64,000 nucleotides of DNA from Rhodospirillaceae bacterium. GTDB lineage: Bacteria > Pseudomonadota > Alphaproteobacteria > Rhodospirillales > Rhodospirillaceae. Position 1 is the first letter of the stretch, and every line of letters begins with the position of its first letter. The stretch lies in contig JAPKDQ010000002.1 in assembly GCA_028822445.1 (NCBI GenBank), positions 434,001-498,000 on the forward strand, read 5' to 3'. The position numbers and the translations under genes are program-made. Below, in pieces: positions 17,945-23,194 of the stretch. The notes under the pieces were generated by a model. It was not told where the DNA came from. It saw only the letters and a list, made by a program, of their open reading frames with translations, and searched no databases.

Positions 17945-19450
17945 TCAGTCTTCCAAAGTAATTGCGTGGAAGGGAATGATACCGCCGACTTGATTGTATC
18001 CATGCACGCGGGGGTTAATGCCGTCTAGCCCCATGTTTTCGACCAGCATCAATGATACCGCTTCATCGCGATAATGCTTGAGAACCTTGCGCACGGCGGC
18101 GATCCGGTCTGCAGGATTCATTGCGTGTTTGGCCTGCTCAATAAAGGGTTGGATTGTCTCGTCGCAGTACCACGGATATGACCACGCACAAGAGTGTAAG
18201 CGGAACGGTCTCATGCTGCCGCCGGTTGGAAGAACTTCATATTCAAAACCGAAGGCCTGCCCGCTCCATTTACCCTGCAAAATACCTTGTACGTATTGGC
18301 TAAAGGGTAGGGGGTGCACTTCCATGCCGACCCCCACTTTAGCGAGGTCGGCGGCGACCTGCTGATACATTGCTGCCATATGTGTGCCGCCGGTGCCGAA
18401 GCTAAATTCGAAGATAAAGGAAAAGCCATCCGGATACCCCGCTTCAGCCAAGAGCACGCGCGCTTTGTCTGGATCATAAGGATACGGCTTTAGCGCATCG
18501 TCTCGTTCAGGGTGTGTTCTGGGGCTCATTTGATCAACGACAGCAGAACGGCCGTCCATAATCATGATTGCTATCGCCTCTTTGTTGACGGCGTAGTTCA
18601 GGGCACGACGCACGCGGACATCTTGGAGGGGCGATTTAACCAACGTATTGAATGAAACAACCTGTGTTGAAGTTGCCGGCCGTTGGTAGGTGTTGAAACC
18701 TGAAGCCTCAATGTTGAACGCATCATCCGGCCCAATCTCCGAGGCGACATCAATGCGGCCTGTCATCAATGCGGCAACACGTGATGAGGCCTCAGGGAGG
18801 TCCAGTATTTCAAGCGTAGAGACTTTCGGCGGACGCCAGGCATTGGTGTGTGCCTTAAGTAAAACCTGGGTTGGGTTCCATTCCGTCACCGCAAAGGGGC
18901 CGCTGCCAATTGGATCAAAGGCAAAGCCTTCACGCCCAACCTTTTTCCAATGGGCTGGTGCTACGATGGGAATGATTGCCATCAAACGCGGAAATTCGGG
19001 GGCTGGCCCGGTCGTAACAAAGCGTAGCGTTAAGGAATCGAGAGCTTCCATGCTTTCGATATCTTTGACGTCTTGGGCAAGGGACTCTCGCATACCCTCT
19101 TCCGACTGTAGGTAGGCGTAGCTTTCTATAACCGCGTTTGCATCTAGCGCTTCCCCATTAGAAAAGGTAACGCCGTTGCGCAGCGTGATGACCCAAGTCT
19201 GGTCGTCTGTGTTCTCCCAAGAGACCGCTAAAGCGGGCTGTATCGACAGGTTCGGGCCGAGATGGGTCAGTGTGTCGAATATTGCTCGTAACGTATACCA
19301 ACCGGTGCGGGCACTCGAAAAATAGGGGTTTCCATTACCATTGGGCAAAGACCCCAAGCCCAGGCGTAATGTCGTTTCTGAAGCCGCCGTATGCGACAGG
19401 GCCGTCGCAAGGATGCCACACAAAAGAGATAATTTTGATAAATGTTTCAT
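17945..19450 (-). CDS. ABC transporter substrate-binding protein, family 5 (paralog)
   Basis: The first of the tandem pair, also 501 residues, with signal peptide LCGILATALSHTAASE. Conserved family blocks include AIFDTLTHLGPNLSIQPALA, WVITLRNGVTFSNGEALDA and DVRVRRALNYAVNKEAIA. Its C-terminal RPFRLHSCAWSYPWYCDETI matches the neighbour closely, so the pair arose by tandem duplication and probably binds related ligands. The downstream paralog starts 3 bases after its stop, which points to one transcript. No permease genes adjoin. It is divergent from the outer-membrane-type protein gene at 19519. Confidence 0.87.
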   Translation of the reverse strand: MKHLSKLSLLCGILATALSHTAASETTLRLGLGSLPNGNGNPYFSSARTGWYTLRAIFDTLTHLGPNLSIQPALAVSWENTDDQTWVITLRNGVTFSNGEALDANAVIESYAYLQSEEGMRESLAQDVKDIESMEALDSLTLRFVTTGPAPEFPRLMAIIPIVAPAHWKKVGREGFAFDPIGSGPFAVTEWNPTQVLLKAHTNAWRPPKVSTLEILDLPEASSRVAALMTGRIDVASEIGPDDAFNIEASGFNTYQRPATSTQVVSFNTLVKSPLQDVRVRRALNYAVNKEAIAIMIMDGRSAVVDQMSPRTHPERDDALKPYPYDPDKARVLLAEAGYPDGFSFIFEFSFGTGGTHMAAMYQQVAADLAKVGVGMEVHPLPFSQYVQGILQGKWSGQAFGFEYEVLPTGGSMRPFRLHSCAWSYPWYCDETIQPFIEQAKHAMNPADRIAAVRKVLKHYRDEAVSLMLVENMGLDGINPRVHGYNQVGGIIPFHAITLED

Positions 19451-19518
19451 GGAAACTTAGAGTACGGAGGGTTTACAGCATCTGTCCAGGCGGCCTCTCA
19501 ATTGATTATACTTCTCCT

Positions 19519-20331
19519 ATGATAAATCCACCTTCTTTAAAGCCAGCCCTTTTTGGGGTGGTGGCCCTTTGTTCGGTTTCCACTGCAGCTATGGCGCAGT
19601 CAGATGACCTAAAGTTTAGTATGAGCCTCGGGGTGGACTACACAACCGGCTCGTACGGTGACACCGACCGGGACACGGAAATTCTTTATGCGCCCCTTTC
19701 CTTACGCGTGGACGGTGGCCCCTGGATTATTCGTGCTGTGTTGCCCTGGCTTCATGTTAGTGGGCCCGCGCTGATTCTTGACGGTGCCGATAGTGGAAGT
19801 ATTGGAAAGAGAGAAAACGCATCGGATTCTGGCCTTGGCGATATTTCATTGTCGCTGATGTACAGCTTTGAACAGTTCTATGAAGATAATTTGTTTGTTG
19901 ATGTTTCGACGCGCGTGAAGATCCCAACAGCCAGTTTTGAGGCTGGACTTGGGACCGGTAGGGCGGATGCATCGCTGCAATTTGATGTCGCGAAGGCCAT
20001 TGGCCCGTTCATTCCGTTTGCCACCTTTGGCTACAAATGGGCCGGCGTGCCCGATGGGTTTAAATTTCGCAACACTGCCTACGGAAGTGTAGGTCTACAG
20101 TACTCATGGTCAGACCGTGTTGCGACCGGCGTCGCTTATGATTACCGACAAGCATCTCTTGAGACATCGGAAGACCCCCAAGATGGCATGGCCTATCTCA
20201 ATATCCGCTTTGCTGATGACTGGTCCGTCAATCTTTATACGGTGATGGGATTTTCAGAGAACAGCCCAGATGCTGGTGGCGGTGTATCGTTTACGTACCG
20301 CTTTCCTCAGCGCGGTCGCCCGACGCGCTAG
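19519..20331 (+). CDS. Predicted outer-membrane beta-barrel protein
   Basis: The protein has a signal peptide (LFGVVALCSVSTAAMAQ) and then many alternating amphipathic strands such as DISLSLMYSFEQ, LFVDVSTRVKIPTA and AYGSVGLQYSWSDRVATGVAYDY, ending close to an aromatic residue (VSFTYRF plus eight residues). This pattern suits a barrel of perhaps 10-12 strands at 270 residues. It resembles proteins often annotated as transporter or MetA-type outer-membrane proteins, but function is unknown. The frame is open upstream into the SBP gene; I chose the ATG giving a clean signal peptide. No strong ribosome site is present. It converges on the DUF5666 lipoprotein gene with 30 bases between. Confidence 0.7.
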   Translation: MINPPSLKPALFGVVALCSVSTAAMAQSDDLKFSMSLGVDYTTGSYGDTDRDTEILYAPLSLRVDGGPWIIRAVLPWLHVSGPALILDGADSGSIGKRENASDSGLGDISLSLMYSFEQFYEDNLFVDVSTRVKIPTASFEAGLGTGRADASLQFDVAKAIGPFIPFATFGYKWAGVPDGFKFRNTAYGSVGLQYSWSDRVATGVAYDYRQASLETSEDPQDGMAYLNIRFADDWSVNLYTVMGFSENSPDAGGGVSFTYRFPQRGRPTR

Positions 20332-20361: not shown

Positions 20362-21597
20362 TTAGACCATGGGCGGACGGAAGTTTCCGGGCCGTTCCCG
20401 CTGAGGTCGTTCTGGAATAACGGAGTTTGGCCGTTCAACTGGGCGCGCCCGCTCAATTCTCTGTGGTCGATCAATCGTTGTCGGACGGACGCGTGCTGGG
20501 CGCATCAATTGGGCTGGGCGAAGCAAGGTAACCACAGTTCTGACCTGTTTTATTTCTCGTGCTGCGATGCTGCCATCCGCCCCCAATTGGCCGGTGACCA
20601 CAACCCGATCTCCAGGCCTTATATTGGACGGAACGCTCAGCCCGATTATTGGAAAGCCTTGCACAGCAAGACCTCCATCTGAGTTCTGAGGCACGTATCC
20701 TTCAAGGTAAATATCCGTGACGCTATCGCTAAAGGGCATGCCCTGTTTCCTGATGGCAACGTCTGCCGTAAAGATCTCGTCGAGCATCCGACCGGCCACG
20801 AATGCTGTGGTGCCGTTTGACAGCGTATCGGCCAAGGCAGCTGACGAAAGGTCTATGTTCAAGTCTCCGATGCTGGCGGCACCATTTTCCGCAACTGTCA
20901 CCGGCCCGCGGACGAGGACCCGGCCATCGTCATCTGTTTGATCAAGCCGTGACGCAATGATCAAACCGGTGTCCATGCGCAGGCCTGATACCCGAACCAT
21001 GTCACCGACTTTTAGTGACGAGAATTCTGATTTCTGATTGTTGTCGCCTGCCAAATTGACACGCACAGTCTGGCCAAGAACGACCAGGCGTTCACTATCA
21101 TAGTCGATACTAGAGATGGGCCCTGTTACAGCGTGACGAATTTCCAGCTTCTCAAGACGTAGGTTGCCGCGTCGATCACGCCAGGCAATACCTTCAATTA
21201 CTTGCCCAACCTTAAGGTCGACCAAAGCGGCAGGGCGGCCATCACTCTCAACCATTGTCTTATTATTATACTCAAGCTTAAGCCCATTCACGATGATGCT
21301 GCCGAAGCCCGAGATGGTTCCGATAATTCCAGTACCGCCGATTCCATCGCCACCGAGCTGAGCGACAAGGCCGGTGCCGCTAATGCCGTCACCTGAGTGG
21401 GCGACAAGGCCGGTGCCGCTAATGCCGTCACCTGAGTGGGCGACAAGGCCGGTACCGCTAATGCCGTCATCTGAGTGGGCGATAGATTGCTCCTCAGCCG
21501 GGGAAGAGGCACAACCTGCAGTCAGGGCGAGCAAGAGGGTTGCCGCGACAGCGTGTCGCAGCGCCTTTTCCCCTATCTGCAGTAGACCCTCAGTCAT
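20362..21597 (-). CDS. DUF5666-domain lipoprotein with Gly-rich repeats
   Basis: This 411-residue protein starts with a lipoprotein signal (LLLALTAGC) and should be membrane anchored. After the cysteine come four copies of a DGI(S/G)GTG repeat, three of them 13-residue units encoded by near-identical 39-base DNA repeats. The body consists of tandem small beta domains of the DUF5666 type (FGSIIVNGLKLEY, LKVGQVIEGIAWRD, LKVGDMVRVSGLR, then IRPGDRVVVTGQL). The C-terminus is rich in Arg and Pro and very basic. Biochemical role is unknown; the fold suggests binding of a polymer or another protein. It is coupled to the DUF6502 gene upstream by a TAATG overlap. Confidence 0.8.
   Translation of the reverse strand: MTEGLLQIGEKALRHAVAATLLLALTAGCASSPAEEQSIAHSDDGISGTGLVAHSGDGISGTGLVAHSGDGISGTGLVAQLGGDGIGGTGIIGTISGFGSIIVNGLKLEYNNKTMVESDGRPAALVDLKVGQVIEGIAWRDRRGNLRLEKLEIRHAVTGPISSIDYDSERLVVLGQTVRVNLAGDNNQKSEFSSLKVGDMVRVSGLRMDTGLIIASRLDQTDDDGRVLVRGPVTVAENGAASIGDLNIDLSSAALADTLSNGTTAFVAGRMLDEIFTADVAIRKQGMPFSDSVTDIYLEGYVPQNSDGGLAVQGFPIIGLSVPSNIRPGDRVVVTGQLGADGSIAAREIKQVRTVVTLLRPAQLMRPARVRPTTIDRPQRIERARPVERPNSVIPERPQRERPGNFRPPMV
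21362..21478. repeat. Three 39-bp tandem repeats inside the DUF5666 gene
   Basis: Units start at 21362, 21401 and 21440. The first two are identical over 39 bases and the third differs at two positions. Each encodes the 13-residue unit AHSGDGISGTGLV or a near form. The frame is kept, so copy number can change without breaking the gene. Confidence 0.95.
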
Positions 21598-22478
21598 TAT
21601 ATATCCGACTCGTTACCCTGTTGTTCGTCTAGGCTGCGTTCCTGGTCAAAGAAATACAAGCCAAAATTGAAGCGACGGTTGGCATCCGTCTTGCCTTTAT
21701 CTACCTCTACCTTCTCCCGTGCGAGTCGGTTTAGAGCCAAAAGGGCCTCCATACCAACTTTTTCCGCCTCTGCGGCGAGGGTTTTCACCGACGAATCGGT
21801 TAATCCCCCGAAGTGGACGCTGCGTTCTAGCCTGGGGTTGCCGTCGCCAATCAAGTTGTGGGTGGTCGCCGCTAAGTGGTCATGGATGTTGCGTCCAAAA
21901 TAGAAGGCTTTTTCATCAAACCCCTTTTCTGGCACAAAAGCTTGGCGGTTCAGAATCACCTGGCCTTTGTCATCCATGCTTGCAACCCCAAGCCTGAGCC
22001 ATTCATCAAGCACGGCGCGCGGACGCACGTCCTTTGATATCCCTTCTACAAGACCGTCAAATGAGAGCGATGAGCCTGATTTATCCCTTCGTGGCAATGG
22101 GATGGGGCGACCTTCTGGGTCCGTTGTTAAGGGGTCGCTGACCCAACGAGAGACGATCTGGGTGCCCAAACCGACTGCGTGAGGCATTTCTCTCTCGGTT
22201 GTTGTTTCCGCCCGAAGCCGCTTTACGTCTTTGCGGTGGACCCCTGTTAGCAGGTTGATTCGGCTATCCGTCTGGCGCTTTCCCTTGACCGGGAATTCGT
22301 CTTCGGCGACAGAAACAAATGTCTCTTTAAGGATAGTTATTAGTGTTGGGAGCGTTACATCCTTGCTTATCATCAAACGCACTAGCGGCCTTAGCATGCG
22401 GCGTAGGGCTGCAATAAGTGCGTCTGGCGGGCCGGCAGGGTTACTCAAAATAGCCGCGCACAGATAAATATATGGCAT
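21597..22478 (-). CDS. DUF6502 family protein
   Basis: This 293-residue soluble protein matches the DUF6502 family from memory: a helical N-terminus (LRRMLRPLVRLMISKDVTLPTL, ILKETFVSVAEDEF), a likely helix-turn-helix region (SRINLLTGVHRKDVKRLR), a middle segment (VGLGTQIVSRWVSDPLTTD) and a C-terminal helical part. The early HTH-like segment suggests DNA binding, which is inference. The ATG at 22478 is used; a TTG ten codons later would match the usual family length better. Two related palindromes lie just upstream. In other proteobacteria DUF6502 and DUF5666 genes are often neighbours, and here they are translationally coupled. Confidence 0.78.
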   Translation of the reverse strand: MPYIYLCAAILSNPAGPPDALIAALRRMLRPLVRLMISKDVTLPTLITILKETFVSVAEDEFPVKGKRQTDSRINLLTGVHRKDVKRLRAETTTEREMPHAVGLGTQIVSRWVSDPLTTDPEGRPIPLPRRDKSGSSLSFDGLVEGISKDVRPRAVLDEWLRLGVASMDDKGQVILNRQAFVPEKGFDEKAFYFGRNIHDHLAATTHNLIGDGNPRLERSVHFGGLTDSSVKTLAAEAEKVGMEALLALNRLAREKVEVDKGKTDANRRFNFGLYFFDQERSLDEQQGNESDI

Positions 22479-22507
22479 TCCGCATTTTCATTATTCATCA
22501 ATAACAC

Positions 22508-22530
22508 ATTGTGGGAAATATTCCCACAAT
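22508..22530. promoter_or_regulatory. Palindromic operator candidate, site 1
   Basis: Arms attgtggga and tcccacaat flank a 5-base centre (aatat). It lies 30 bases upstream of the DUF6502 start. Its inner 17 bases are the reverse complement of those of site 2, so both present the same GTGGGA-TCCCAC site. Confidence 0.7.
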
Positions 22531-22567
22531 TATTTCTTGACCTCTTTGATGAAGTGGAGGTAACCTA

Positions 22568-22602
22568 TTTATATTCGTGGGAATATTTCCCACGAATATA
22601 AA
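22568..22602. promoter_or_regulatory. Palindromic operator candidate, site 2
   Basis: Perfect 15-base arms (tttatattcgtggga and its complement) flank a 5-base centre. The centre lies 66 bases from that of site 1, about six helical turns. A TTGACC element (22537-22542) lies between the two sites. This layout suits a dimeric repressor bound at two sites, possibly with looping. The binding protein is unknown. Confidence 0.7.
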
Positions 22603-22677
22603 TCGTAACGAAGCAGTTGAAACCAACAAGGAAATGCCAACCCAGAGAAAATGTGTTCAGTACCCCATGTGATCTTG

Positions 22678-22725
22678 CTTTCTTGTCACCGTCCCTGAGT
22701 CATTTTCTACCCCGGTGACAGAAAG
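22678..22725. repeat. Inverted repeat in the DUF6502 upstream spacer
   Basis: The arm ctttcttgtcaccg (22678-22691) and cggtgacagaaag (22713-22725) are complementary with one bulged base and a 21-base loop. No T tract follows, so it is not an obvious terminator. Apart from this and the two palindromes, the spacer 22479-22906 shows no supported gene. Confidence 0.6.
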
Positions 22726-22906
22726 CTATAGTTGCCTCCCGCTTTATCTTGAAGATTGCTGACGAGCGATCGACTTGGAAGGGCGGGAGGTGGCATTTTG
22801 GGGTCACGGTTTTTGTGGCTGGTGCAGCTTTCTTTCGTTATGACGTCCCTTTCTATTACGAGTGCGCGTTCGCATACTTTGCGTCTCACAAAGATAGGTA
22901 CAGGCC

Positions 22907-23194
22907 ATGTCAGAAGAAATATTTACAGATGCTATTGGTGAAATCACCGTAACGGGAAGCGTCGTTCGCGTTGATCTGCTGACAATGGCGGTATCCGATA
23001 AAGACGAACAGGGGCGCCTCAAGCCACAATTTAAACAAAGGCTCATCTTCCCTATTGAGGGTTTCGCGCACGCGGCAGAAGCCATGCTGCAAATGCGAAA
23101 CCAGCTAGAACAGCGAGGTATCCTTACTCGCAAAGCAGATACTGCTCCACAGATGTCGTTTACTGAATCCGGCCCGACCGGTCAGCCCAACTGA
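22907..23194 (+). CDS. Small hypothetical protein
   Basis: This ORF of 95 residues begins MSEEIFTDAIGEITVTGSVV with an AGG-containing ribosome site. It continues with a strand-rich first half (VVRVDLLTMAVSD), then PQFKQRLIFPIEGFAHAAEAMLQMRNQLEQRGIL, a likely helix, and a polar tail. The outline (beta strands, then an IFPIEGF step and a helix) resembles small cytosolic proteins of the DUF3467 kind, but I do not claim membership. No signal peptide or membrane segment is present. It stands alone, 430 bases from the divergent DUF6502 gene and convergent with mnmC. Confidence 0.65.
   Translation: MSEEIFTDAIGEITVTGSVVRVDLLTMAVSDKDEQGRLKPQFKQRLIFPIEGFAHAAEAMLQMRNQLEQRGILTRKADTAPQMSFTESGPTGQPN

Follow-up and report, generated by a model that had tools for sequence, protein, structure and literature searches.

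Paired palindromes upstream of DUF6502 genes and the case for a self-regulating repressor with small RNA targets

Two matching palindromes lie between a gene encoding a DUF6502 protein (minus strand) and a small ORF that begins at 22907 (plus strand), in a 64,000-nucleotide window of a Rhodospirillaceae genome (the window is the whole stretch of DNA analysed). Which protein binds these sites, and which genes are controlled from them? The initial annotation, made from the sequence of the window, considered the palindromes precise enough to point to a specific regulator. We compared the sites across related genomes, across the DUF6502 family and on plasmids, and examined the predicted promoters, RNAs and proteins around them. 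The features are collected in Table 1.

Table 1. Predicted features of the palindrome locus, in window coordinates
Feature	Position	Strand	Remarks
Operator site 1 (putative)	core 22511-22527; perfect arms 22508-22530	none	GTGGGAAATATTCCCAC
Operator site 2 (putative)	core 22577-22593; perfect arms 22567-22603	none	GTGGGAATATTTCCCAC
DUF6502 protein, 293-aa ORF	21597..22478	-	PF20112, E 2.4e-33; true start codon unsure
Predicted helix-turn-helix of DUF6502, residues 51-70	22209..22268	-	H61 and K63 in or at second helix
DUF5666 protein, GGTG-type repeats	20362..21597	-	frame overlaps DUF6502 end by one base
Predicted -10 box of DUF6502 promoter, TATTGA	22498..22503	-	7 nt from site 1; TATA-type majority in 26 loci
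Predicted -35 box of divergent RNA promoter, TTGACC	22537..22542	+	TTGAC in 26/26 window-layout paired loci
Predicted -10 box of divergent RNA promoter, TAACCT	22561..22566	+	18-nt spacer; TANNNT with 16-18 nt spacer in 26/26 such loci
sRNA1, conserved structured non-coding RNA	22573..22800	+	covariance-model match 22610-22801; 5' end predicted
sRNA1 internal hairpin, C-rich loop strand	22677..22726	+	fold and alignment
sRNA1 terminator-like hairpin followed by TTTT	22731..22799	+	fold and alignment

Palindromes and DUF6502 genes

The cores of the two sites are a single 17-base sequence, GTGGGAA-N3-TTCCCAC, in opposite orientation, with 66 bp between centres and a TTGACC element in between. 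Direct inspection of the sequence bore out this description from the initial annotation, except that the perfect arms, given there as 9 and 15 bases, were recounted as 10 bp for site 1 and 17 bp for site 2. As judged by eye, relatives do not share the long extension of the site 2 arms. In the 2.85 Mb genome there are three exact matches to the motif, namely the window pair and a single copy on contig C8, compared to none for the same motif read backwards as a control. When up to two mismatches were allowed, the motif was found 6 times versus 10 times for the control. Since the control outnumbers the motif at this setting, weak sites carry no weight and the exact form alone is informative.

In a survey of 61 genomes (from the window's own genome out to its genus, family and order), the exact palindrome was detected in 16 genomes and DUF6502 in 15, the latter spread over 7 of 47 genera. 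All 15 DUF6502 carriers have the palindrome. In the sixteenth genome (G052), the palindrome is inside a LysR-like ORF and there is no DUF6502, so we take this copy as a chance occurrence. The motif is not scattered through these genomes but tracks DUF6502. Scanning of genome contigs for exact pairs (gap 25-55) returned 29 stretches, 26 with the layout of the window and three with another layout (L053, L055 and L067), and a DUF6502 match starts 55-110 bp from the palindrome pair in every one of them. Judging from record titles, which are unsafe as taxonomy, the window-layout loci would belong to Candidatus Marinimicrobia (11), Rhodospirillaceae (8), Alphaproteobacteria (3) and others (4), and the remaining three loci to Gammaproteobacteria (two) and Klebsiella (one, MAG).

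DUF6502 genes were also gathered by protein profile alone. Filtering at 85% identity and leaving out the window row and all palindrome-found loci gave 85 genes. Within 330 bp upstream of these, the form TGGG-N7/8-CCCA was found at 50, TGTG-N7/8-CACA at 6, both at one and neither at 28. A palindrome of either form is present upstream of 57/85 genes (TGGG form, 51/85), and conservation at orthologous DUF6502 genes, a check put forward in the initial annotation, holds for most members of the family. TGGG sites are 58-fold denser in these upstream stretches (76 per 28,050 bp) than elsewhere in the same loci (13 per 278,381 bp, with approximately 8 expected by chance, as an estimate). All 16 of the window's relatives within this set have a site (15 TGGG, 1 TGTG); in the other groups (n = 69), there are 35 genes with TGGG, 5 with TGTG, one with both and 28 with none, and all site-less genes are outside the window's relatives. 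With the palindrome-found loci included, 65 of 99 DUF6502 genes have the TGGG form, compared to 1.7 on average and at most 5 in 100 dinucleotide shuffles of the same set. The sites are non-random and tied to DUF6502, supporting the earlier view that they point to a specific regulator. Fixed helical phasing of the site pair was rejected: spacing is 61-66 in window-layout loci but 28-67 (one 190) in family-found loci, in a survey that took in non-symmetric sites too and in which phase was judged by eye.

Held-out plasmids were used as a further source. A relative is carried by 75 plasmids, of which 13 were fetched. DUF6502 is annotated in nine of the 13, the other four having no annotation at that place, and DUF5666 comes right after it in all but the Acinetobacter plasmid (8/9). 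The palindrome is upstream of DUF6502 in 4/13 loci. No palindrome match was detected in the Mesorhizobium, Acinetobacter and Variovorax plasmid loci (one near miss by eye in Mesorhizobium). None of the six Rhizobium loci has an upstream palindrome; instead, all six have ATGGGAA..TTCCCAT at the end of the DUF5666 gene or just behind it.

Predicted promoters and RNAs at the sites

The TTGACC element was originally described as promoter-like and assigned to the stretch ahead of the DUF6502/DUF5666 pair. Its position stands, but it is the predicted -35 box of a divergent RNA rather than of DUF6502. In all 26 window-layout loci, TTGAC starts at position 7-10 after site 1 and TANNNT ends 8-12 nt before site 2. 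Site 2 begins near +4 of this predicted promoter, which points away from DUF6502. The window's copy is weak relative to consensus, and a promoter scanner lists TTGATG-N18-TATATT instead. On the DUF6502 side, the TATA-type box is conserved to a varying degree (T 65%, A 96%, T 73%, A 88% over the 26 loci). Site 1 would cover approximately -36 to -20 of the predicted DUF6502 promoter, and the alternative listed by the scanner, TTCCCA-N16-AATAAT (22517-22490), likewise has its -35 box inside site 1. In the wider family (52 loci), the distance between site and -10 box is not fixed, and in L113 the operator lies over the -10 box of TTGACG-N17-AATAAT. In all six Rhizobium loci, it fills the spacer of TTGACA-N18-TTATTN. 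Because the operators sit over the -35 box, in the spacer, over the -10 box and near +4, repression is favoured.

The product of the divergent promoter would be a structured non-coding RNA, which we call sRNA1. An alignment of 25 copies gives 22 pairs, of which 11 show one or more compensated changes. Its last element is a G+C-rich hairpin, which in most rows has a T run. Compared to shuffled sequences, folding is 4.5 sd better for the window copy and 2.8 sd better for the L040 copy (3/200 shuffles as good). With a covariance model, sRNA1 was found in the same 15 genomes that carry DUF6502, at E of 1e-24 or better; a doubtful match in G023 (E 0.004) was discounted. There was no match in 89 other DUF6502 loci, so sRNA1 belongs, as far as seen, to the window's family. 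No Rfam family reached threshold at the place of sRNA1 in ten sources, and the weak matches to mir-2363 (E 0.2 and 0.34) are the palindrome pair itself. A small ORF in place of an RNA was rejected on reading the alignment, which shows neither a conserved ATG nor an intact frame, the latter being shifted by gaps of 1-2 bases.

Several observations at related loci should also be noted. Two genomes have a second, partial sRNA1 copy, which lacks the terminator and lies behind a degenerate palindrome, in L205 (G005:C10:256574-256721) and L206 (G006:C25:31737-31905), the latter between a TonB-receptor-like ORF and an ORF that we presume to resemble a secreted DUF1501-type protein. In L112/L049 (G004:C12), the DUF6502 gene beside the palindromes has two in-frame TGA stops, and the operator pair and sRNA1 are present; the same genome holds a second DUF6502 elsewhere (L091). 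In the window, sRNA1 is followed by a 95-aa ORF (22907-23194) with no Pfam or NCBIfam match, and other genomes of the genus have a similar start region in the corresponding position.

On contig C8, the exact palindrome is upstream of a 78-nt conserved element (sRNA2) with a predicted structure of 18 pairs. The second target in this genome looks like another small RNA. The element was detected in all seven genomes of the genus and in G009, which are the same eight palindrome-found copies that built the model, and these copies are too alike for compensated changes to bear on the structure. A weaker partner palindrome is 45 bp away in six of the eight genomes and 36 bp away in G009, and is absent in G001. 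A weak match in G035 (E 0.004) was discounted.

In Rhizobium, a short RNA is likely encoded behind the DUF5666 gene (L221-L224 and L226). In L221-L224, four of the six loci, a long hairpin, GATTGGCTAACGGGT..ACCCGCTAGCCAATC, starts approximately 50 nt beyond the site. L221 and L223 have a clear T-rich tail on this hairpin, L222 and L224 a poor one. L226 has a different hairpin followed by six T, and L227 shows neither hairpin. A terminator scanner run on L222, with loops limited to 8 bases, did not report the hairpin, and Rfam had no match. The Rhizobium RNA is thus read from the sequence by inspection and is not a tool call.

The DUF6502 protein and its covariation with operator bases

DUF6502 of the window matches Pfam PF20112 with 115.6 bits (cut-off 27), and no match to NCBIfam or to any known helix-turn-helix family in Pfam was found. 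An AlphaFold2 model built from 26 sequences is weak overall (mean pLDDT 64, pTM 0.39). It places helices at residues 51-58 and 62-70 with a tight turn, where local pLDDT is approximately 80 compared to 64 for the whole model, and a second winged-helix-like part at residues 84-156. With this weak model, Foldseek returned no match at E 0.001. VIA returned matches with Z of 5 to 6.5, and many rows are sigma factors and helix-turn-helix regulators, with HetR and IclR among them. A sequence search of solved structures gave a single weak match (E 0.0022), to the C-terminal part of DUF6502 only. These results support a DNA-binding fold without proving it.

We compared every alignment column with the operator bases in 71 proteins that have a symmetric palindrome; palindrome-found rows were included, which inflates the association. 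For half-site position 4 (G or T), the best column is K63 (z 18.3), and five of the top 10 columns are in residues 45-72. For position 6 (A or other), the best column is H61 (z 7.5), with eight of the top 10 in residues 45-72 (1.1 expected). For position 1, none of the top 10 columns is in the helix, and for position 7 one is; position 1 leads to R132 and W140. In the family-found set, K63 occurs with TGGG in 48 genes and with TGTG in two, and R63 with TGGG in one and with TGTG in four (Fisher p 2e-4, kinship ignored). Genes that lack a simple site (15 K, 9 R) are uninformative. L166, L161 and L189 are exceptions to the covariation, and L156 has both operator forms.

Few comparisons are left once phylogeny is allowed for. 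On a tree built without the helix columns, counting well supported branches, there are two independent contrasts for residue 63 (operator change in the same direction in an average of 1.7, in the opposite direction in none) and one for residue 61 (0.8 in the same direction). Because they are so few, these contrasts cannot reach significance. A clean sister pair is L104 (R63, GTGTGTA) versus L111 (K63, GTGGGTA). Seven genomes have a second DUF6502 copy. Each of these seven copies combines Q61 with an operator that is different at position 6 and, in one case, at position 4 too. As the second copies form one clade, the Q61 type had a single origin, followed by divergence. The guess that DUF6502 acts on its own sites is strengthened by operator bases that covary with residues of its predicted helix, but the covariation is not decisive once phylogeny is allowed for.

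DUF5666 was found by Pfam in 8/8 ORFs tested downstream of DUF6502. Two or more GG[TS]G motifs are found in a downstream ORF at 61 of 99 loci; 36 have no such ORF, including the window, whose DUF5666 protein has one such motif, and two loci are too short. The GGTG/DUF5666 protein looks exported. L053 and L067 resemble the window in having a protein with GGTG repeats behind DUF6502 together with an outer-membrane-like ORF in convergent orientation; at L055 the contig end is too near to show either. The window's outer-membrane-like protein (19321-20331, convergent to the DUF5666 gene) has weak matches to Phenol_MetA_deg and DUF3187, both below cut-off. By eye, the similar ORF in L053 and L067 occupies an equivalent position, so the outer-membrane-like protein may be part of the module.

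Proposed repression, its alternatives and known systems

From these sequence comparisons we infer, as the probable explanation, that DUF6502 is a helix-turn-helix repressor that binds both palindromes and shuts off its own DUF6502-DUF5666 operon and the small RNA promoters; this covers binding, dimerisation, repression, the promoters and transcription of the RNAs. DUF6502 would bind each palindrome, probably as a dimer, and would perhaps bridge both. On site 1 it would cover the -35 region of its own promoter and turn the operon off, and on site 2, with site 1 upstream, it would block the divergent sRNA1 promoter TTGACC-N18-TAACCT. It would also control the second small RNA at one other locus. 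Self-regulation, raised earlier as a possibility, is supported by the comparative evidence of co-occurrence, upstream sites and covariation.

DUF6502 might instead bind the sites and activate its own promoter and that of sRNA2, with the palindrome taking the place of a -35 box and keeping a set distance to the -10 box. We consider this unlikely. A TATA-type box 7 nt after site 1 without a good -35 box in the 26 window-layout loci would fit activation, and by our reading the spacing in the sRNA2 promoters and in L053, L055 and L067 deviates from this by no more than 1 nt. However, the spacing is not constant across the 52 loci of the wider family, the Rhizobium site occupies a spacer of the ordinary 18 nt that follows a perfect TTGACA, the L113 site covers a -10 box, and sRNA1 has a TTGAC..TANNNT promoter with its site near +4.

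The remaining alternatives take the sites away from DUF6502. At a single promoter, autoregulation would look the same as regulation by another conserved transcription factor of which DUF6502 is merely a target. This is quite improbable: where one genome has two DUF6502 copies, the operators differ together with the DUF6502 helix residues; 46 relatives without DUF6502 have no motif outside coding sequence; and the association holds outside the window's class and in loci titled Gammaproteobacteria. It is more improbable still that the palindromes act as hairpins in RNA, be it as terminators or as 5' stem-loops, or belong to a small repeat element, and are not protein sites. Both cores can fold, and site 1 with the T-rich sequence after it scores as terminator-like, but DUF6502 is oriented away from site 1, which leaves no evident gene to read into the site on the plus strand. 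In addition, the diverged copies L035, L037 and L038 are changed on one arm only, with no compensation, the Rhizobium palindrome lies inside a promoter spacer, and genomes of the window's genus have no more than two loci each.

A repressor of this kind would give a widespread family of unknown function a concrete candidate job and a motif, and would place two RNA elements without an Rfam match under a candidate regulator. DUF6502 is present in named isolates (Rhizobium etli CFN 42, R. johnstonii 3841 and Azospirillum lipoferum 4B). More tentatively, and with somewhat less than even confidence, we propose that DUF6502 is the founder of a family of DNA-binding regulators with a readable code, in which helix residue 61 would determine base 6 of the half-site and residue 63 base 4. 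Its standing partners would be small RNAs: sRNA1 next to the gene, sRNA2 at another locus, and in Rhizobium an unrelated RNA that follows the operon. Together with the exported-looking GGTG/DUF5666 protein, these would form a module of regulator, exported protein and RNA in which different RNAs have been recruited in different lineages. The proposed rules linking residues and bases yield operator predictions for further DUF6502 members.

The window protein is a clear member of PF20112, which is listed in Pfam as of unknown function; the target motif, the likely recognition helix and the RNA targets are proposed here. In NCBI records, proteins of the DUF6502 family are mostly beside a DUF5666 protein (Rhizobium, Azospirillum and others). 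No mention of DUF6502 was found in 5.39 million open-access papers. Among the matches listed for DUF5666, none concerns a DUF6502-DUF5666 module, and those listed for two half-sites and a repressor concern animals or human cells.

Like 6S RNA (RF00013), sRNA1 is structured, roughly 200 nt long and ends in a strong hairpin. The identification of sRNA1 as 6S RNA was rejected, as there is no RF00013 match in the window or its genome and several relatives that carry sRNA1 have a separate 6S locus (G005, G007 and G009 carry 6S RNA away from sRNA1). With strict filters, the Rfam 6S model found nothing in six of the seven genomes of the genus, the window's included, and a diverged 6S RNA may be hidden there.

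Residues 1-161 and 81-168 of DUF6502 show a weak structural likeness to the winged helices of HetR and IclR (VIA Z 5.2 to 6.1). These values are within the range of common arrangements and there is no sequence match, so we do not claim kinship. MerR-type activators have their operator in a 19-20 bp spacer. Here, the operators are found at varying positions, the spacer in Rhizobium measures 18 nt, and no MerR domain was matched in Pfam at E up to 0.5. Autoregulated helix-turn-helix repressors have palindromic operators on their own core promoter, often paired, and few other targets. DUF6502 resembles them in the palindromic, paired putative operators of its own predicted promoter. It differs from them in that two of the three predicted promoters in the genus would drive structured RNAs.
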